Below are positions 321-10,593 of a stretch of DNA of 31,550 nucleotides, piece by piece (the stretch's first letter is position 1; the number at the start of each line of letters is the position of its first letter). Below the pieces are notes generated by a model. It saw only the letters and a program-made list of their open reading frames with translations, searched no databases and was not told where the DNA came from. The translations under genes were made by a program, and so were the position numbers. Source of the stretch: a virus; the IMG/VR virus record IMGVR_UViG_3300032116_000875, positions 1 through 31,550 of that record; one strand, given 5' to 3'.

Positions 321-742
321 ACTAGCTTTCTGTATAGTTTATATGAAGTATATACTATAGCAAAGATAATTAAAATAGCCAACATGTTATTAGCCAGCTT
401 CTTCCACCAAGGATACTTCTCATAGTACTTGATAGGAATTTTTCTGTCAATAATCTTAGTGACATATACAGGATCACACTTACCTTGGATATACACCTTC
501 TTTTCTTTTGGTACATACCATGCTTTTACCGTCACTCTCTCCTTGGTTAGAGTTATGGTGTCAGTAAGCTCCTTAATTGTAACCACAGTATCTGTATGCA
601 CTTCGGGTACATATAACGTAATAGTGTCATGTACAATAACAGTATCAGAGGTCAATAGATAAGGATACTTTTCTACAAGCCTAGTAAATCTTTTAACAGG
701 GCTACAGCTTGCCAATAACAATAAAAATAGTAGTGCTCTCAT
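317..742 (-). CDS. putative unimolecular spanin (u-spanin) lipoprotein
   Basis: A 141-aa protein with a lipoprotein signal at its N-terminus (MRALLFLLLLASC, lipobox L-A-S-C with the acylated Cys at residue 13). The middle region, residues 20-110, is rich in Thr/Val and beta-like. A single transmembrane helix lies at about residues 116-136, followed by a short basic tail ending in YRKLV. An outer-membrane lipid anchor plus a C-terminal inner-membrane helix in one chain is the architecture of u-spanins such as phage T1 gp11, which fuse the two membranes at the last step of lysis. The gene sits between the last tail gene (2-bp gap) and the holin-like gene (ATGA overlap), where a spanin is expected. 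No sequence family was recognised, so the call rests on topology and neighbourhood. Confidence 0.6.
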   Translation of the reverse strand: MRALLFLLLLASCSPVKRFTRLVEKYPYLLTSDTVIVHDTITLYVPEVHTDTVVTIKELTDTITLTKERVTVKAWYVPKEKKVYIQGKCDPVYVTKIIDRKIPIKYYEKYPWWKKLANNMLAILIIFAIVYTSYKLYRKLV

Positions 743-744
743 AT

Positions 745-3549
745 TTACCAGAATAATAATGTTCTCCAGAATAATGTACCATTACTTTGTGGAATATATA
801 AAAACTTTAAGCCATCTCTAGATTTTATTAATTCCATACGGTTTCCTACATAAGCTGTAGAGTTTACTCCTGGTATTCTACTACCCAAATTAGCTACTCT
901 TTTAACTACATCTAACATATACAAAGAACCAGAGTTTGAAAACTGAATATAAATATTATTCTCTCCATCATAAGCATATGATGTGTTAGTAGTAAAAGTA
1001 TCTACTAATAATCCAGGGACCATGAAGCCATAATCAAAAGTTTGATTGTTGATATTATACCTTTGTACAAAAGCTGTTGCTCCACCTGTAGTAGTCCATA
1101 TGTAGTTATCATTGCCATTACCGTATGTCCATTTTAATCCGCAACCAGCTCCTCTAGCAGGTATACCAAGTAAGACATAGTTTGTAGTGTTGTCAATTGC
1201 TGTTGTGGCAGCAAATGTTAAAGTGTTGTTAGTATTAGCCGTAATAGCAACTTCAACACCTTGGTTTGCACCACCTATAAATCTTACACGTTTACCCACC
1301 CATTGGTTAGTAATCCAGTTCTTAGCTGTATCTACAAGAGTAGTAGTTGATCCTGAAGTAGCTGTACCATATGAATCCATGATTTCATAACGAGTAGTTG
1401 TATCTGGAGTAAAGGCAGCAGTAGCAAAAACAAGTGTATTGTTATTGTTTGCTGTAATTATTAACTCAGCACCTAAGCCTGTACCAGCTACTATTCTTAC
1501 AACATGACCTACCCAAGTACCGCGTATCCAATTTTTAGTGCTATCTACAAGAGTTGTTGTGCTTCCACTTGATGCATAACCAAAAGGATATTGATCTTTT
1601 GGCTGAAATTTAGTATCTCTACCAAAACTAGCAGGGTTAAGAATAATGTATCTAGTTGCCCCTGTTGTTGGAGTAAATGCCGTAGCAGCAGGAATAGTAA
1701 TAGTGTTAGCAGTATTAGAAGTAATTCTTCTAATCTGTGATGTTGGAGTAATAGACCCTCCTGCAACTAACATAATAAATTTACCTGCATGTTCATTTAC
1801 ATCCCATGTTTCATTTGCATCTACAAGTAAACTGGTTGTTGTTGTACTAGTTGCAGCTAAGTTAGCAGTAGCAGTTATTTCAATATCAAAAGTGGTTTGT
1901 CCCCAAATACCTAATATATTATACCCTGTGTTCCAAGCAGCTTCTGTAGCACCTGAAATTCTAACAAACTCACCATGTTTAAACAAATGGCTTAAAGTAG
2001 TAGTTACAGTACCAATAGTTCCAAGTGTTAGTACGTTGATTGTACATGCTGTGCCTGTACCACCTGTAGTAGCTTTAATACCTGTTGTATAACCTGTACC
2101 ACAACGCCTTAATTTTACAGCTATGACAGCACCTAATGGATCTGTTGCAGTAACATAACATTGAGCATTAGTACCCGTAGAAATAGTAAGTACATCACCG
2201 ACAATATAACCTGATCCACCAGCACCTACAGCAATACTAGTTACACCTGTGGTAGCTCTAGTTGCAGTAGCAATACCAAATCCTACATCACCATCTTTTT
2301 TAACTATTGTGTTGCCAAGCACCCCATAATCAAAATAAGGTCCAGTAATCCACATATCTGCTTCCATGTGATAAGCCAAAGTAGCAGAGTTGGCTGTACC
2401 AATAAAGTAGATTAGGTTATCATCTGGATAAATTTCATATTGAGATGTAGCATCTGGAGTAACTGTCCATTTTGAATCTACTTCAAAGTAATCACCTTTA
2501 TTAGCTACAATTCTTCTATCTTGTCCAGCACCTGTACCACCAATAATTCTAATAGAATAATTTCGGTATCTATCAGCAGGCCAAGATTGAGATGAGTCTG
2601 TTATTGTTCTAGTAGTACCTGCGGTGGCAGTACCAGTAACCAAAGGTCCTGTTAAATCACTTGTTGATTCAATTTGAATCTCAGTACCCAATGCCCCACC
2701 AAACATACCTGTATTCATGGTTTTCTGATACCATGTGTTAGTCAACACATCATACATTTGAAATGTATAAAATGGAGATCCAGAAGAACTTGATAATAAC
2801 CATACTACACCCGTTTTTACCATAAACCTACTGTAGGCACTAGGTGTTACATTGTATGCAGTATCTACTTCAATAATTTGTGATGCAATTTCATATGTTG
2901 CAGCTGTAGTAGGTGTTAATCTCCATCCTTGGTTATCCCAAGGCTCATATTGTTGAAGGTTTACATCTACAAAAAACAATGTGGTTTCATTGTTAGCAAG
3001 TATAGTTCTTTGTTCTATCTGGTTGTTACCTGTTAATACTCGGCATGTGTAACCCAACCATTGATTAATTTCCCATTTTTTAGTAGTGTCTACTATTTGA
3101 GTAGCATTTGCAGAAGTTAAATAACCACCATCATGACTTACAGCATCTGAAGAAGAAATGATTTTTCTAACCTCCTGTGCACCTGGGCCAAACATTATTC
3201 TCATCTCAATACCTTCTAAAGCAGTTCCGCCTGCTAAGTAAGGTATTCTAAATTGAGTTGGTCCTAATGTTTCAAGTATACGTCCTCTGTTACCTAAAAC
3301 TTCTTGACACTGCATTGTATTTACAGTTACTGGAGTGTAATAAGTTGGAGCCAACAAAGTAGCCCAAACATTAGTCCAAGTATCATATCTGTAAAATACA
3401 GAAGTTAGACTGTAATAAATATATCTACCATCACCACTTTGTGCGGAAGTCATAGCAGATGCTGCATTGTTTATTGTCTGTGGAAGAGTTGTCATCCACT
3501 CCCATACAGGTAGATCTAGTGTAGTCTTTAAATTATTTGTTACTGGCAT
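745..3549 (-). CDS. large repeat-built tail-fibre-like virion protein
   Basis: A 934-aa protein rich in Thr, Ser, Gly and Asn with almost no charged clusters, as in phage fibres. The first 120 residues have propeller-like aromatic strands (YIYYSLTSVFYRYD). Five degenerate modules of 65-80 residues then share the pattern TLVDsTKNW..WVG..VRI..G.G.......ITAN..NTL.F......T.YEI. They lie near residues 144-222, 306-373, 571-640, 657-723 and 726-795; the last two are the most alike. Between modules 2 and 3 lies a GSGY-VGDVLTIS type glycine-rich insert (about 423-506) and an Ig-like strand segment. The C-terminus again looks propeller-like. It is the longest gene of the structural operon and lies directly before the lysis genes. 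Receptor binding or a tail appendage role is inferred. Confidence 0.6.
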   Translation of the reverse strand: MPVTNNLKTTLDLPVWEWMTTLPQTINNAASAMTSAQSGDGRYIYYSLTSVFYRYDTWTNVWATLLAPTYYTPVTVNTMQCQEVLGNRGRILETLGPTQFRIPYLAGGTALEGIEMRIMFGPGAQEVRKIISSSDAVSHDGGYLTSANATQIVDTTKKWEINQWLGYTCRVLTGNNQIEQRTILANNETTLFFVDVNLQQYEPWDNQGWRLTPTTAATYEIASQIIEVDTAYNVTPSAYSRFMVKTGVVWLLSSSSGSPFYTFQMYDVLTNTWYQKTMNTGMFGGALGTEIQIESTSDLTGPLVTGTATAGTTRTITDSSQSWPADRYRNYSIRIIGGTGAGQDRRIVANKGDYFEVDSKWTVTPDATSQYEIYPDDNLIYFIGTANSATLAYHMEADMWITGPYFDYGVLGNTIVKKDGDVGFGIATATRATTGVTSIAVGAGGSGYIVGDVLTISTGTNAQCYVTATDPLGAVIAVKLRRCGTGYTTGIKATTGGTGTACTINVLTLGTIGTVTTTLSHLFKHGEFVRISGATEAAWNTGYNILGIWGQTTFDIEITATANLAATSTTTTSLLVDANETWDVNEHAGKFIMLVAGGSITPTSQIRRITSNTANTITIPAATAFTPTTGATRYIILNPASFGRDTKFQPKDQYPFGYASSGSTTTLVDSTKNWIRGTWVGHVVRIVAGTGLGAELIITANNNNTLVFATAAFTPDTTTRYEIMDSYGTATSGSTTTLVDTAKNWITNQWVGKRVRFIGGANQGVEVAITANTNNTLTFAATTAIDNTTNYVLLGIPARGAGCGLKWTYGNGNDNYIWTTTGGATAFVQRYNINNQTFDYGFMVPGLLVDTFTTNTSYAYDGENNIYIQFSNSGSLYMLDVVKRVANLGSRIPGVNSTAYVGNRMELIKSRDGLKFLYIPQSNGTLFWRTLLFW

Positions 3550-3551
3550 GA

Positions 3552-3851
3552 TTAAGAAATAATAATGTTTGATCTAATACCTGTATTGTATGCAGTTCTT
3601 GCCCAATCAGTAATTTGCTGAATTGATGATATACCTCCATAAGCATTAACAGAGCTTACTTGGTTAATGCTTGGAGAAGTGTCAGCGGCAGATAAGTTAA
3701 TCCTTAGATAGCCGTTACCATCTCTTGCTCCTAAGGACTGTGCCATATACAATAATCTGCGCAGTAATACTACAGATTCATCCTCAGCAGGATTAATTAA
3801 CTGCCCATTTTCATCTAAGAGACCTACCTCTTTTACATCAATATAACTCAT
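3552..3851 (-). CDS. small virion-associated protein, unknown
   Basis: A 99-aa protein beginning MSYIDVKEVGLLDENGQL. I chose the ATG at 3851 because it overlaps the stop of the upstream gene as ATGA. A longer version would need a TTG codon at 3863 inside that gene. The N-terminal half is acidic (NPAEDESVVLLRRLLYMAQ) and likely helical. The second half is Ser/Asn-rich with the sequence VNAYGGISSIQQITDWAR. It sits between two tail-type genes with gaps of 2 bp or overlaps, so it is part of the virion operon. A short helical protein here could be a tail-fibre connector, but nothing in the sequence proves that. Confidence 0.65.
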   Translation of the reverse strand: MSYIDVKEVGLLDENGQLINPAEDESVVLLRRLLYMAQSLGARDGNGYLRINLSAADTSPSINQVSSVNAYGGISSIQQITDWARTAYNTGIRSNIIIS

Positions 3852-4702
3852 ACTATATACCAATTAGTTGCTGTGTGTACAATATCTAATGACGTATAGG
3901 CATTCTTAATGTTTATCTCAGCCTGATCGTCAATAGGTTCAGATATCAAAGGTACGATTTTTACGGTACTTTCGCCTATGTTCTTTATGTTATATCCAGA
4001 TGGATTGGCAGAAGCAATGGCAGGAAGATTGATAACGCAAGGCGTTAACATGTCAACATATATGTAATAATCAGTCGCTGAAGGGGTATATGGACTAGCA
4101 GTAACTAATACAGTACTACCCCCACCGCTTGGGACATTTTTCCAAAGTTGAGATGCGGAATTATAAACTATAGTGTCACCATTTGAAGGTGAAATAATCT
4201 GAACATCATGAATCTCGTCAAGCTCATACCCGTTCTGTATCTTTACCTCAACAACACCTTGATTGACATGCTGTCTTACAACAATACCAACATAAACTAA
4301 GTGAGCAGGAGCAAGTTGTTTTGTAGATGTCCACGTCCCTGCAACGGTACTGCTTAAGTATAGTTGTGTTCCGGGCGCATATGCAGATGTATTTAACCCT
4401 TCAAGGGAACCAATGACAACAACATATCCGTTCTTATTGTTAGCAATATCTGCCTGCAATACGCCATATGTCTGAGCTGATGTGGCATCAGAAGTAGCAA
4501 GGGCCTTTGTTACCGTTGGCTTATTTCCTGATCCACCATTGATGTACACAACAGTGCCCTTAGTTAAAGTAGCACCTGTTTGATTTCGTACTAACGAAAC
4601 AAGCTTTATAGCAGACGATAATGTCTTTGGCCTACCGTCGGGCCCTGCGACAGTGATGCTGTCATAACCAAACATGTTGCCATTGGCATCAATTACTTGC
4701 AT
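3848..4702 (-). CDS. beta-rich virion protein, tail/fibre-like
   Basis: A 284-aa protein. Residues 35-155 hold a beta-domain common in phage tail and decoration proteins, with the markers VRNQTGATLTKGTVVYINGG, ATSDATSAQTYGVL and APGTQLYLSS. A linker (GYELDEIHDVQI) leads to a SPSNGDTIVYNSASQLWKNV segment, which is the short repeat typically found in phage fibre proteins just before the tip. The last 80 residues form a separate domain containing YYIYVDMLTPCVINLP. The gene overlaps its upstream neighbour by 10 bp and its downstream neighbour by 4 bp. The role is inferred to be a structural tail or fibre component. Which part of the particle it belongs to cannot be told. Confidence 0.6.
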   Translation of the reverse strand: MQVIDANGNMFGYDSITVAGPDGRPKTLSSAIKLVSLVRNQTGATLTKGTVVYINGGSGNKPTVTKALATSDATSAQTYGVLQADIANNKNGYVVVIGSLEGLNTSAYAPGTQLYLSSTVAGTWTSTKQLAPAHLVYVGIVVRQHVNQGVVEVKIQNGYELDEIHDVQIISPSNGDTIVYNSASQLWKNVPSGGGSTVLVTASPYTPSATDYYIYVDMLTPCVINLPAIASANPSGYNIKNIGESTVKIVPLISEPIDDQAEINIKNAYTSLDIVHTATNWYIV

Positions 4703-5025
4703 CTTACCACATTGATATTTGGAGAGTCGACACCCCTAACAATAAATGAAGTGCCAGCAATATCAGATATAACTTTAATGTAATCGTTCTCATCTAAGTG
4801 ATAACCATACTCATCAGTGAATATGTCACCCTCATCTAGTGATACGGTGTATATCGTAACAGTTGTAGCAGTTGCCGCAACATACTTCTGAACGGTCAAA
4901 ACAGCAGCAGCAAGATTGCTAAAGCGCATAGACTGAACCTCTGATATATTATTATCAGGAGCTGTATGGACGATTGTTCCCGATACAGCAACTATAGTAC
5001 CCTCGTTGCTGAATTTACCAGTCAT
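4693..5025 (-). CDS. small beta-sandwich virion protein
   Basis: A 110-aa protein beginning MTGKFSNEGTIVAVSGTIVH. The pattern of alternating hydrophobic residues (MRFSNLAAAVLTVQKYV, TVTIYTVSLDEGD, ENDYIKVISDIAG) resembles a group of small phage virion proteins that pair an 'extra-terms' beta-strand unit with a C-terminal strand such as SFIVRGVD. Its ATG overlaps the stop of the 52-aa gene by one base (TAATG), which indicates coupled translation. The acidic insert DEGDIFTDEYGYHLDEND is unusual in an otherwise neutral beta protein. It is probably a minor head or tail protein; the function is otherwise unknown. Confidence 0.6.
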   Translation of the reverse strand: MTGKFSNEGTIVAVSGTIVHTAPDNNISEVQSMRFSNLAAAVLTVQKYVAATATTVTIYTVSLDEGDIFTDEYGYHLDENDYIKVISDIAGTSFIVRGVDSPNINVVRCK

Positions 5026-5183
5026 TACTGCTGTCCTTTAAGTGCCTGTATTTCTTCGTAAATAGCAAGCAATTGAGCTTCTTTATCTGCAATGACTTGA
5101 TTAACGTCAACATCAGGGATTTCAATCTCTCTTACCTCAACTAATCCATTTTGATCGTAAATTTCTTCTCTAATAGTTGCCAT
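5025..5183 (-). CDS. 52-aa virion-operon protein with C-terminal helix
   Basis: A short ORF starting at ATG 5183 and ending with TAA at 5025-5027, whose last base is the first base of the next ATG. The protein begins MATIREEIYDQNGLVEVREI and ends in a predicted amphipathic helix (DKEAQLLAIYEEIQALKG). It fills exactly the gap between its neighbours (3 bp upstream, 1-bp overlap downstream), which supports coding despite its length. I recall similar short proteins with an N-terminal 'E-I-x-D-x-N-G-x-V' strand and a C-terminal helix from phage tail modules, but have no firm family for it. Confidence 0.6.
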   Translation of the reverse strand: MATIREEIYDQNGLVEVREIEIPDVDVNQVIADKEAQLLAIYEEIQALKGQQ

Positions 5184-5186
5184 AAC

Positions 5187-5858
5187 TTAACTTATATACA
5201 TGTATATTAATGGGGTTGACGTCACATAATTTGGCGACACTGTAGCTGAATTTGGAACTGTATATGAACCTGGGAAATATGAAAATCCAATCACATTATT
5301 AGAACTTCCAATACCACTAGACCAGAAAGCTGGGATTGATCCCACTGGTGCTCCAGTTGTATTAATAGTGTTTATATTAGCAATAACACCTATAGCGTAC
5401 ATTTGACTAGTTTCATTAAAACTAATAGTACCAGAAGTTGTCCATGTTTTCAAACCTGTTGTACTACAATCAAGATCAGGACTAGCTCCCATTAATTCTA
5501 TTGTATTACCACCTTGAAAATATTTATAAACAACAATCTTCATAAGACTTGAAGCTACTGCTCCAGTTACGTTTACAGAAAACGACTGTGGAGATACTGG
5601 TTGAGCAAAAGTAGTGAACAAGCAAGTTAAGGCATTCGTTCCAGGAAATGCATTTGAACTTGTACTTCCAATTATAGGAACATGTGGATAATAAACACCT
5701 AACTTAAGTGGAAAGTCTAAATGTTGACCAACTATGTTTGTCTTTAATTCATTACCATTCATCGAGTAACTACCCAGACCACCATCTGAAACCTCCATAA
5801 GAGCTTTATCAAATACACCTACATCGTAACTAGGTAAGTCTTCTATTTTATATCCCAT
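5187..5858 (-). CDS. beta-rich virion protein, possible carbohydrate-binding or receptor-type domain
   Basis: A 223-aa protein with the N-terminus MGYKIEDLPSYDVGVFDKAL. From about residue 50 it is a jelly-roll-like domain: strands with the pattern MKIVVYKYFQGGNTIELMG, then STTGLKTWTTSGTISF and SQMYAIGVIANIN. The succession 'description of an object, tag, STTG-K-W, YAIGV' is seen in many phage fibre and baseplate proteins with lectin-like folds. The C-terminal 50 residues are Ser/Thr/Tyr/Pro-rich and end PLIYMYIS. The gene is 2 bp downstream of the 45-aa ORF. A receptor-binding or tail-tip role is plausible. The assignment is by sequence character only. Confidence 0.55.
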   Translation of the reverse strand: MGYKIEDLPSYDVGVFDKALMEVSDGGLGSYSMNGNELKTNIVGQHLDFPLKLGVYYPHVPIIGSTSSNAFPGTNALTCLFTTFAQPVSPQSFSVNVTGAVASSLMKIVVYKYFQGGNTIELMGASPDLDCSTTGLKTWTTSGTISFNETSQMYAIGVIANINTINTTGAPVGSIPAFWSSGIGSSNNVIGFSYFPGSYTVPNSATVSPNYVTSTPLIYMYIS

Positions 5859-5860
5859 GT

Positions 5861-5998
5861 CTAATCTATTATTCGTTCAACATTATCATCAGTAACACGA
5901 TCAACACCATCATCAGCAAGCCTAGCAAATGGACTAATAGCCGATGCTATGATCTTACCAGTAATCTCAATCGCTATGCTTATCGCTGTTCCTATCAT
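5861..5998 (-). CDS. 45-aa ORF in the virion operon
   Basis: ATG at 5998 to TAG at 5861-5863. The start is one base after the stop of the 155-aa gene and the stop is two bases before the next ATG, so the ORF fills the gap exactly. The peptide starts with a hydrophobic amphipathic stretch (MIGTAISIAIEITGKIIASA) and ends acidic (DDGVDRVTDDNVERIID). The hydrophobic part could be a weak membrane segment or a buried helix. The function is unknown. Support is positional, because the operon leaves no other reading for this gap. Confidence 0.5.
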   Translation of the reverse strand: MIGTAISIAIEITGKIIASAISPFARLADDGVDRVTDDNVERIID

Positions 5999-5999
5999 C

Positions 6000-6467
6000 T
6001 TACCAAAGTGCTACAATTTTAGTAGCTGTTGTGTCAGCAAAAACCTGCTTTACCTGTACAGGGAAAAATCCAGCAGGAACACCAGAGAATGTAATGTCAT
6101 CTCCACCTGCTGTCAACACATGTAAATTACCAGAACTGCCTATATATAGAACACATCCTTCTTGATTTACATTTGAGTATATAGCGTACTCATCACCAAT
6201 TGTAATAGGATATAAATCTACAGAAAGTCCTAGTTGTGTCGCACTAACAGATGTTACATAAGCAGCATCACTATTCGTATTTTTATATACAATGTCGCCA
6301 ATTTTAACTCCTAGTGTAATAAAGTCTTTTGTTGCATCTTTGAGCATGTTAGTTCCAGTACCACTATTAGTTCCAGAAACAGCTAATGTATTTGGATTTG
6401 GAATGATAACAGTGTCACTAACTGCAACTAATAATGCTCTACTTGTCTGTAATTTTTGATATGCCAT
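6000..6467 (-). CDS. small beta-rich virion protein (spike or decoration type)
   Basis: A 155-aa protein. Residues 30-90 hold the pattern MLKDATKDFITLGVKIGDIVYKNTNSDAAYVTSVSATQLGLSVDLYPITIGDEYAIYS, a module found in many phage structural proteins and related to the modules in the 934-aa protein (LVD.TKNW...G..V). The C-terminal part, residues 103-155, reads GCVLYIGSSGNLHVLTAGGD, FSGVPAGFFPVQVKQVFA and TKIVALW. I recognise this as a recurrent ending of small phage virion proteins. It is therefore likely a capsid- or tail-associated component. It lies between the basic proteins and the tail block of the operon. Confidence 0.6.
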   Translation of the reverse strand: MAYQKLQTSRALLVAVSDTVIIPNPNTLAVSGTNSGTGTNMLKDATKDFITLGVKIGDIVYKNTNSDAAYVTSVSATQLGLSVDLYPITIGDEYAIYSNVNQEGCVLYIGSSGNLHVLTAGGDDITFSGVPAGFFPVQVKQVFADTTATKIVALW

Positions 6468-8282: not shown

Positions 8283-8789
8283 ATGAAAAGAATAATCAAA
8301 CGCGATAAAGCATACGAACGACGTGAGTTGACGTATGACTTTCTTGGAGACTGGGCAATCGTAAGACGTTGGGCTCAAGTCAATTACAATCTCAGTAGAT
8401 CAGACCTAGAGATGATCCTGTTCCTACATAAAAAGAGATTGTTCACCAGGACAGATTTTGCCGACTACGCAAACTTCATGGATTGGGATCGCAACCGATT
8501 TGATAGGTTGCTAAGAGAGGAGTGGGTATACATATGGCGTAAACGCGGCTTTGGTGAAACCAATATGTATGAGGTATCATTTAAGGCCAAGAAGATGGTG
8601 ACGTCCATTTATAAGAAATTGACAGGCCTAGAGCCAATTCCGACATCATCTAGACGAAATAAGGCGTTCCGTAAGAACGCCCCATTCCATCAAAAAACAT
8701 TAGCAAAAGCGATCGTCGATTTTAACGACCGATTTAAAGAACAACAACAACGTCCTTCTCTTGGAGAATTACGTAACGAGTTTCGTTGA
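8283..8789 (+). CDS. winged-helix (MarR-like) regulator
   Basis: A 168-aa protein. Residues 41-80 (LEMILFLHKKRLFTRTDFAD, then WDRNRFDRLLREEWV) fit a helix-turn-helix. Residues 84-100 (IWRKRGFGETNMYEVSF) fit a beta wing with a Gly turn, followed by a long helix (KAKKMVTSIYKKL), as in MarR-type folds. The C-terminal part has RRNKAFRKNAPFHQKTLAKA and a disordered Gln-rich tail. It is the only rightward gene between the left operon and the chaperonins, and it is read from the palindromic promoter it could control. Its last 56 bp overlap groES tail to tail. The MarR resemblance is structural and family membership is not certain. Confidence 0.5.
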   Translation: MKRIIKRDKAYERRELTYDFLGDWAIVRRWAQVNYNLSRSDLEMILFLHKKRLFTRTDFADYANFMDWDRNRFDRLLREEWVYIWRKRGFGETNMYEVSFKAKKMVTSIYKKLTGLEPIPTSSRRNKAFRKNAPFHQKTLAKAIVDFNDRFKEQQQRPSLGELRNEFR

Positions 8790-8991
8790 TCAAAACGTCG
8801 TGGCTATTCACTTTGTCATACAAGATGATATCTCCATACTGAATGCCTGCCACCTGGATTCCAACGTCAAACACGGTAGCCTTATGGTAACGCATTTCGC
8901 TTGAGTCTTCTCCTGTAAGAAGAAGACCACTCTTTGTTTGCTTTTGCTCAGCAACCTTCTGGGCGAGTATATACTTATTTAGGACTTTCAT
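8734..8991 (-). CDS. groES: GroES-type co-chaperonin, short form
   Basis: An 85-aa GroES homologue (E. coli has 97). It keeps the order of the family: an N-terminal strand (KVLNKYILAQKV), a mobile loop (about residues 14-34) containing SGLLLTG where E. coli has GGIVLTG, then KATVFDVG, YGDIILYDK and a C-terminal strand (RYVILQEKDVVVVL). Between the VG and the YGD only seven residues remain, against about 16 in E. coli, so the roof beta-hairpin is missing, as in T4 Gp31. It would close the GroEL cage during folding of phage proteins. It starts within the 3' end of groEL (17-bp overlap) and overlaps the convergent regulator by 56 bp. Confidence 0.85.
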   Translation of the reverse strand: MKVLNKYILAQKVAEQKQTKSGLLLTGEDSSEMRYHKATVFDVGIQVAGIQYGDIILYDKVNSHDVLINETRYVILQEKDVVVVL

Positions 8992-10543
8992 CTGCTCTGA
9001 TATTTGTAATGATAGCGTTTGTACTTAAGATTGTCGTAGCGACCGACACAGCGTTCAATAGAGCATTCTTTGTAACCTTCGTTGGGTCAACAATACCAGC
9101 CTTGATCATGTCAGCATAGCACTCAGCCTTCACGTCGTAACCCTCATTAGGGATTGGCATGATTCCATCCATGATACTATATGCGTCCTTACCTGCGTTT
9201 GTGATGATCTGCCACATAGGTGATCTTAGGGCCTTAATCATAATATTTGATGCAGGAGTGATTTCATGACGTCCAAGCTCAGTTGCCTCGTTGAACAATG
9301 CTACACCACCACCAGGGAGAATACCTTCCTCTAGAGCGGCCTCAACAGCACAGACAGCATCGTCAATGCGGTCCTTCTTCTCCTTCTGCTCGATGTCACT
9401 CAAGGCACCGACATAGATCACAGCTACACCACCCGATAGGTTGGCAGCACGCTCCTTGCGGAAGTCAGTCTCTTCTTTACTTACGCTCTCAAAGATGGTC
9501 TCAGTGATGTCAGTAATACGCTCGTTAATAGCCTCCTGTGAACTAAAATACGGCATAAAGATGGTATTATCCTTACCAACGATCACTTTGGCACACCTGC
9601 CTAGGTGAGACACATCAATCAACGACAAGTCATCACCTGTGTCCTCACTGAAGTATGTGCCGTCCAATGCAATCGCTAGATCTTCTAACAAGTCTTTCTG
9701 ACGGTATCCAAAGCTTGGAGGAAGAATGTTGCATGCCTTTATTTTACCCTGCACTACGTTGATATTCAATGTGTTAAGTGCAGCAGGGCTCATTTCACCG
9801 ATGATAAGAAGTGGCTTATTGTTGGCCACAACATACTGCAACACCTTCTCAATGTTCAATAGGTTGCTGATCTCCTGATCTGTGATCAATACATATGGGT
9901 TCTCCAACACAGCCTCTTGACGCTTATAGTCAGTGATGAAGTGACGGCTATTCCAACCTCGATCAGCTTTAATACCCTTTATCACCTCAACATATGTGTT
10001 GTGGTCCTTGCTGTTCTCAACTGATACCATCTTAACCTCACCGAACGCGTCAGCGATCATGCCGCCAATCTCAGTGTCATTGTTTGCACTGATTGAAGCC
10101 ACATCGCGGAGCTTCTTGCCTGATAACTTCTTGGAGCGCTTGGTCAGATTAGCGACAATTTTCTCAGTAATCTGATTGATCTCACGAATTACCTCAGTGA
10201 CATTGTCTTCTGGAGATAAAACCTCCTCAGCAGCGTCAACAATAGCCTCAGCTAAAACCACACTTGTCGTGGTACCATCACCTGCAACGGTTGCTGTCTT
10301 CTCAGCAGCCTGTCGGACCATCATAACGGCCAAGTTCTCAACCGGATCAAAGAGATTGATCGACTTAGCGACCGTTACACCATCCTTTGTTACGGTGATA
10401 CCGCCCACATGGTGCTCTGATTCAATCAACACTGTGCGACCTCGCGCACCTAATGTGCTTTTTACTGCTCCAGCGATCGTTTTGATGCCTTTAATGAGCT
10501 TTTTGCGACCATCGTCGCCTAAATGAACATGTTTTACTACCAT
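8975..10543 (-). CDS. groEL: phage-encoded GroEL chaperonin
   Basis: A 522-aa group I chaperonin. Conserved landmarks are LGARGRTVLI (31-40), VTKDGVTVAK with Asp54, AGDGTTT with Asp89 (88-93), the hinge and apical residues IKADRGWNSRHF (191-202), and DDAVCAVEAALEEGILPGGG with Asp395. These cover the ATP/Mg-binding and hydrolytic Asp residues (E. coli D52, D87, D398), so the ATPase should be active. Apical residues Trp197 and Phe202 could contact substrate or GroES. The protein ends ADESPK without the Gly-Gly-Met tail of bacterial GroEL. The order groEL then groES is the reverse of the bacterial operon. It is preceded by its own TAnnTTTG element and bounded upstream by terminators. Confidence 0.95.
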   Translation of the reverse strand: MVVKHVHLGDDGRKKLIKGIKTIAGAVKSTLGARGRTVLIESEHHVGGITVTKDGVTVAKSINLFDPVENLAVMMVRQAAEKTATVAGDGTTTSVVLAEAIVDAAEEVLSPEDNVTEVIREINQITEKIVANLTKRSKKLSGKKLRDVASISANNDTEIGGMIADAFGEVKMVSVENSKDHNTYVEVIKGIKADRGWNSRHFITDYKRQEAVLENPYVLITDQEISNLLNIEKVLQYVVANNKPLLIIGEMSPAALNTLNINVVQGKIKACNILPPSFGYRQKDLLEDLAIALDGTYFSEDTGDDLSLIDVSHLGRCAKVIVGKDNTIFMPYFSSQEAINERITDITETIFESVSKEETDFRKERAANLSGGVAVIYVGALSDIEQKEKKDRIDDAVCAVEAALEEGILPGGGVALFNEATELGRHEITPASNIMIKALRSPMWQIITNAGKDAYSIMDGIMPIPNEGYDVKAECYADMIKAGIVDPTKVTKNALLNAVSVATTILSTNAIITNIRADESPK

Positions 10544-10561: not shown

Positions 10562-10569
10562 CAAATATA
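10562..10569 (-). promoter_or_regulatory. TAnnTTTG element upstream of groEL
   Basis: On the minus strand the sequence is TATATTTG, 19 bp before the groEL ATG. It directly follows the T-run of the upstream terminator. I do not see a good TTTG box 19-21 bp further upstream, so this is a one-box match. Its position right after two terminators argues that groEL-groES is an independent transcription unit. Confidence 0.5.
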
Positions 10570-10570
10570 C

Positions 10571-10593
10571 AAAAAACCCATCACTAGGATGGG
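10571..10593 (-). terminator. hairpin terminator upstream of groEL
   Basis: On the minus strand a 6-bp stem (CCCATC / GATGGG) with a 5-nt loop is followed by TTTTTT. It would stop transcription coming from the 397-aa gene before groEL. A weaker AAATC-TAGT-GATTT hairpin lies at 10625-10638. Confidence 0.6.

Follow-up and report, generated by a model that had tools for sequence, protein, structure and literature searches.

Bacteriophage T4 has, to our knowledge, no GroEL of its own, and its lid protein Gp31 partners the GroEL of the host. Gp31 is without the roof loops of GroES, aids the folding of the ~56 kDa T4 capsid protein, and widens the chamber under it by ~8% (PMC6318259); a first-pass annotation of the locus described here had likewise noted the missing hairpin and the larger cage. 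Several phages encode a chaperonin themselves: EL gp146, OBP gp246, and AR9 gp228 are reported to work without GroES, EL gp146 is merely 22-25% identical to GroEL, and OBP gp246 and AR9 gp228 are single rings (PMC9598537, PMC5934643). The Cellulophaga phages phi38:1 and Calle (Callevirus, Pervagoviridae) carry both GroEL and Cpn10, in the order cpn10, small ORF, groEL and with a Cpn10 roof of 15 residues; cpn10 is listed among the Pervagoviridae core genes (PMC8776804), and GroEL has previously been reported in related environmental genomes (PMC5332604). In the Flavobacterium elemo phages (Elemovirus, 60 kb) and podovirus ctfjg026 (MW202828), groEL is followed by groES, the two genes have touching ends, and the GroES roof is 8 residues long.

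The pair considered here lies in an IMG/VR virus record of 31,550 bases, the whole of which was analyzed and is referred to as the window. It shares with elemo and ctfjg026 the gene order, the roof of 8, and related portal and capsid-like proteins, but its genes overlap by 17 nt rather than touch, and the proteins are well separated in sequence (GroEL 38% and GroES 29% identical to elemo, 47.5% and 43.5% to MW202828). The Pervagoviridae resemble it in possessing GroEL and Cpn10 and in portal and capsid-like proteins that match between its relatives and Cellulophaga phages (capsid-like protein 40% identical to Callevirus), whereas their genes are ordered otherwise, the roof has another length, GroEL falls on another branch, and the Callevirus GroEL and Cpn10 are divergent. 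With Gp31 the window GroES has in common a roofless phage lid of GroES-like fold, although the two sequences are barely alignable and Gp31 works with a host barrel. Unlike EL gp146, OBP gp246, and AR9 gp228, the window GroEL belongs clearly to group I and comes with its own GroES. Elemo phages, Pervagoviridae, and T4 Gp31 had already shown that phages may encode such a pair, reverse its gene order, or make a lid that has no roof. What is new here, as far as alignment can tell, and had escaped the first-pass annotation, is the combination of an intact ATPase site with the loss of residues that would hold two rings together and with two polar positions in the substrate groove.

The gene pair and its surroundings

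Table 1. Features of the chaperonin locus, in window coordinates
Feature	Position	Strand	Basis or remark
groEL, group I chaperonin (Cpn60), 522 aa	8975-10543	-	Pfam Cpn60_TCP1 2e-57, PHROGs, fold search
groES, co-chaperonin (Cpn10), 85 aa, roof hairpin absent	8734-8991	-	Pfam Cpn10 1.9e-10, PHROGs, fold search
groEL/groES overlap, 17 nt	8975-8991	-	Exact in nearly all close relatives
GroES shortened roof segment IQVAGIQ, residues 45-51	8839-8859	-	AlphaFold model and family comparison
GroES mobile-loop core TKSGLLLTG, GroEL-binding tripeptide LLL	8911-8937	-	Flexible region of model; family alignment
GroEL residues 444-456 with four SR1 inter-ring positions	9176-9214	-	Alignment to E. coli GroEL
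TATATTTG, Bacteroidota-type -7 promoter box, -26 of groEL start	10562-10569	-	TAnnTTTG motif count
Convergent gene, 168 aa, phrog_17028	8283-8789	+	Tail-to-tail 56-nt overlap with groES 3' end

Coordinates and Pfam matches (Table 1) agree with the initial description of a complete phage GroEL-GroES pair in which groEL lies upstream of groES and overlaps it. That description had also stressed the rarity of such pairs and their reversed order, and in both respects it needed tempering: the order is as described but had been annotated in the 60-kb Flavobacterium elemo phages and MW202828, and phage GroEL is uncommon yet well known, since GroEL-like genes occur in 257 of 50,697 named phage records, while phage pairs had been recognized before. 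GroEL matches labelled 'Acinetobacter phage MD-2021a' were rejected as phage genes because the contigs look bacterial and mislabelled; one of them (CAKLQF020000019) resembles a bacterial chromosome, with glpD, pckG, and groS-groL. Records of this kind slightly raise the number of GroEL genes counted as phage genes in such collections.

The exact 17-nt overlap recurs in nearly every near relative, with touching ends in a few. In a more distant clade (L056-L075) the genes remain on one strand but mostly lie 0.1-1.8 kb apart, with other sequence in between. Purifying selection on both genes is strong (median dN/dS 0.08 for groEL and 0.13 for groES), and the pair is real, old, and very probably functional. 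Between the same genome pairs (the window against L002 and close relatives), pS is ~0.66 in groES and ~0.39 in the adjoining groEL; the higher synonymous divergence of groES could reflect recombination, or codon bias if groEL is highly expressed.

Upstream of groEL, the motif TAnnTTTG, which we take to be the Bacteroidota -7 box, was found in 60 of 65 family regions against 4.2 expected, mostly at -24 to -28. As it sits at about -26 in so many of them, the pair is predicted to have, and probably has, its own host-type promoter. A terminator-like stem (CCCATC/GATGGG) with a T run, at 10571-10593 on the minus strand, stops a few bases short of the promoter box. The gene that converges on groES has a homolog in 78 of 79 loci tested and overlaps groES by 4-62 nt in 67; it is a conserved neighbor and possibly a regulator, its MW202828 relative being annotated as a repressor. 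Farther away, positions 695-6447, which include the gene for a 934-aa protein, have no counterpart at the nucleotide level in the nearest relative, of 64 kb, while the flanks match at 84-88%; this stretch is a variable module, probably for host recognition. The window is only a fragment and lacks the head module.

The lid and the barrel

The window GroES has the traits of the GroES/Cpn10 family, a beta-barrel fold and a flexible mobile loop with a hydrophobic tripeptide (SGLLL). As the first-pass annotation had proposed, only seven residues, IQVAGIQ, separate VG44 from Y52-G53-D54, and the roof beta-hairpin, typical of but not universal in GroES/Cpn10, was found neither in the sequence nor in the AlphaFold model (mean pLDDT 86), in which an irregular loop (44-54) joins strands 35-43 and 55-59. 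The model matches E. coli GroES (5opx_R) with Z 11.4 and rmsd 1.4 over 80 residues, and T4 Gp31 with Z 10.0 and rmsd 1.5 over 64 (2cgt_O) or Z 9.5 and rmsd 3.6 over 83 (1g31_A). With bacterial GroES scoring slightly higher, what the modeled lid appears to share with Gp31 is likeness rather than closer kinship.

Counted between two reference glycines, the roof is 8 residues in each of 59 distinct GroES from phages (57 from the IMG/VR family, with those of MW202828 and elemo), 12 in 29/29 Flavobacteriaceae, and 16-18 in 71 of 73 bacteria from many phyla. The hairpin is absent, as had been claimed, but E. coli, the sole comparator in that claim, is the wrong yardstick because the Flavobacteriaceae roof is itself already short: the phage roof is four residues shorter than that of the likely hosts, not nine. 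A sequencing-related deletion was rejected as the cause of the short roof, which is the same in 59 distinct sequences. The Gp31 roof is 10 residues by direct reading of its VG...VGD motif; an automated count of 18, in which the aligner had paired the wrong glycine, was discarded. A roof of 8 is also found in GroES of Bacteroides phage DAC16, although its GroEL groups with Bacteroidota and outside the phage clade, which suggests that roof loss occurred more than once. DAC16 carries its pair in the usual groES-groEL order, annotated merely as hypothetical proteins.

The GroEL model (pLDDT 77) has the three-domain chaperonin fold and retrieved group I chaperonins first in a fold search (Z about 40-42.5), among them E. 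coli GroEL (4ki8_A: Z 42.5, rmsd 4.4 over 510) and human Hsp60 (9shk_A: Z 42.0, rmsd 2.4 over 512). Two features first read from the single sequence hold across the family: all 66 relatives keep the ATPase residues D54, D89, and D395, which align with E. coli D52, D87, and D398, and none of the 66 has the GGM tail. The full set of ATP-binding and hydrolysis residues (D52, D87, T89-T91, D398, G415, and D495 in E. coli numbering) is found in the window GroEL, and nearly all are retained across relatives. Flavobacteriaceae GroEL, mostly 39-45% identical to that of the window, belongs to the same family with the same ATPase residues, and its GroES has the already shortened roof; in contrast to the phage pair, however, groES precedes groEL, and the double-ring contacts, the GGM tail, and a roof of 12 rather than 8 are kept.

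Contacts between the two rings of GroEL involve A109, E434, R452-E461, S463, and V464 (PMC2741606), and the variant SR1 (R452E/E461A/S463A/V464A), defined together with natural analogs in PMC12696368, splits the rings (PMC2741606, PMC12696368). In the window GroEL, W444, D453, Y455, and S456 replace R452, E461, S463, and V464, and A109 has become P. Using the published contact list without E434, which falls in a gapped stretch, and equally conserved equatorial positions as controls, the bacterial residue was kept among 21 representatives at 0.06 of inter-ring positions against 0.50 of matched positions (P=0.011; P=0.007 with K105 added), a test built on five or six positions. By residue class, retention was 0.23 against 0.68 (P=0.003), in proteins that have diverged throughout (equatorial class retention 0.69). 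The phage GroEL is, judged from its sequence, probably a single ring rather than two, but some relatives still have R or K at position 452, D is frequent at 461, and ring pairing may therefore persist in part.

The substrate groove is polar at two positions, V263 being N in 63 and L234 being E in 50 of 66 relatives, and both belong to the groove residues required for substrate binding (PMC3268035). Reduced conservation across the whole groove was rejected: as a whole the substrate-binding set showed no drop in conservation relative to matched apical positions (P=0.71), and the stress is therefore on positions 234 and 263 only. On the lid, the position of E. coli GroES I25 is L in 57 of 57 family members and mostly I in Flavobacteriaceae; L is also found there in 11 of 73 bacteria across GTDB, in 3 of 29 Flavobacteriaceae, and in Gp31, whose partner GroEL is a double ring. 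A single-ring GroEL stalls with normal GroES, weakening the interaction restores its work, and an I25L variant appears functional (PMC5575113). The altered groove and the Leu at this position, which also occurs in ordinary GroES, would fit affinity tuning for a single ring.

Spread, ancestry, and hosts

Relatives of the window GroEL occur in at least 96 IMG/VR stretches (80 kept) and close GroES in at least 30, and the phage group that carries the pair is abundant. The best-matching relative (G001, 64 kb) has a GroEL 94% identical, and apart from the stretch at 0.7-6.4 kb most of the window recurs in it. It also encodes a terminase, a portal, and a 474-aa head protein of ~51 kDa (phrog_13704), inferred from its class and its position behind the portal to be the major capsid protein. 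When IMG/VR contigs were picked by the capsid gene alone, groEL and groES were both present in 10 of 10 above 53 kb and in 1 of 6 of 41-52 kb, and the two genes were present or absent together in all 16. In this lineage of podovirus-like Bacteroidota phages, 60-68 kb in size, groEL and groES thus belong to the core genes.

The portal and head proteins of the relatives match those of MW202828, Maribacter phage Panino, Flavobacterium elemo phages, and Cellulophaga phages, and chaperonins are found in all of MW202828, Panino, elemo, and Callevirus. Genome bins of Flavobacteriaceae and Cytophagales hold two more relatives, on short contigs with the same gene neighbors. The virus infects Bacteroidota, with Flavobacteriaceae the likely hosts.

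The main survey of viral chaperonins, by Marine and colleagues in 2017, reportedly tied GroEL phylogeny to groEL/groES gene order. In a maximum-likelihood tree of 34 rows, including 20 bacterial GroELs with Bacteroidota among them, a branch supported at 100/99 sets the phage family, MW202828, and L126 off from the bacterial GroELs; the elemo GroEL forms a long separate branch adjoining this clade. A larger quick tree was also made. The comparison with Bacteroidota hosts that had been proposed as a check thus yielded a deep phage-only clade and led to rejection of a recent host copy, and because the clade stands outside the sampled bacterial GroELs, the gene is old in these phages.

Function of the pair and competing explanations

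On balance it seems probable, if by no great measure, that the pair is a phage-specific chaperonin belonging to the core of its lineage and forming a dedicated, probably single-ring cage with a larger or more open chamber that folds the capsid-like protein. During infection, the phage's own roofless lid would cap a seven-subunit GroEL barrel. Having neither roof hairpin nor C-terminal tails, and probably being a single or loosely paired ring, the cage may offer a chamber larger or more open than that of the host. Its clients would be one or a few virion proteins. The most likely is the major-capsid-like protein of ~51 kDa, which would fold poorly or too slowly with the GroEL-GroES of the host. 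L234E and V263N would narrow the range of clients and tune affinity for GroES, such that a single ring could still release its lid. The proposed client is close in size to the T4 capsid protein gp23 (~56 kDa), itself a client of the Gp31 lid. Common descent alone could also account for finding chaperonin and capsid together in one lineage. A more specific proposal is offered tentatively and stops short of being probable: the GroEL would be a naturally occurring single ring, its ring pairing lost, that still depends on GroES, with a roofless lid encoded by the phage itself and a groove tuned anew, and would serve an abundant Bacteroidota phage lineage as a core virion-assembly factor.

The chaperonin might simply add folding capacity for no special client, its changes being drift and co-drift of the pair. 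A general supplement of this sort would account for the retained ATPase site and most groove hydrophobics, and GroEL is found in many unrelated phages as well, yet a generalist should keep the substrate-binding positions at which V263N and L234E are clade-wide, and the tie to one capsid lineage and the constant retention of an own lid also speak against it; we consider it unlikely. Loss of the roof, taken separately, could be neutral or a mere shortening of the gene, a trend continued from the short Flavobacteriaceae roof with no adaptation of the cage. The gradation in roof length from other bacteria through Flavobacteriaceae to the phage family is what such a trend would leave behind, but the length is fixed while the residues vary, DAC16 suggests a repeated outcome, and T4 Gp31 is roofless too (PMC6318259), and to our minds a neutral origin is decidedly unlikely.

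Redirection of the host machine, with phage GroES mainly capping host GroEL or with subunits mixed between the two, is how Gp31 acts (PMC6318259), and the conserved mobile loop would permit it; that a GroEL with full ATPase residues is always kept alongside GroES, needlessly for a lid-only hijack, makes it very improbable here. As for the client, the first-pass annotation had suggested a cage for one large phage protein, perhaps the capsid or the 934-aa fibre. The cage for a phage client gains from the pair's presence in every capsid-picked contig above 53 kb, but the fibre had to be given up as a conserved client. The 934-aa fibre-like protein is encoded on the same fragment, ~5 kb off, but neither the two relatives examined over their whole length nor the remaining retrieved loci yielded a homolog, and at 101 kDa it is too big for a GroEL-type cage. 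We regard it as a scarcely credible client, and the conserved 51-kDa capsid-like protein as the likelier one.

Where T4 changes only the lid, and so enlarges the cage of its host, this phage lineage owns both halves, and evolution could therefore alter barrel and lid together for one client. The pair provides a natural test of the need for two GroEL rings, of the effect of roof and C-terminal tails on chamber size, and of the specialization of a chaperonin on a capsid protein, and cultured relatives, the elemo phages and Callevirus phi38:1, bring these questions within reach of experiment. If the interpretation is true, a small GroES-dependent single-ring chaperonin would also be a handy folding tool.
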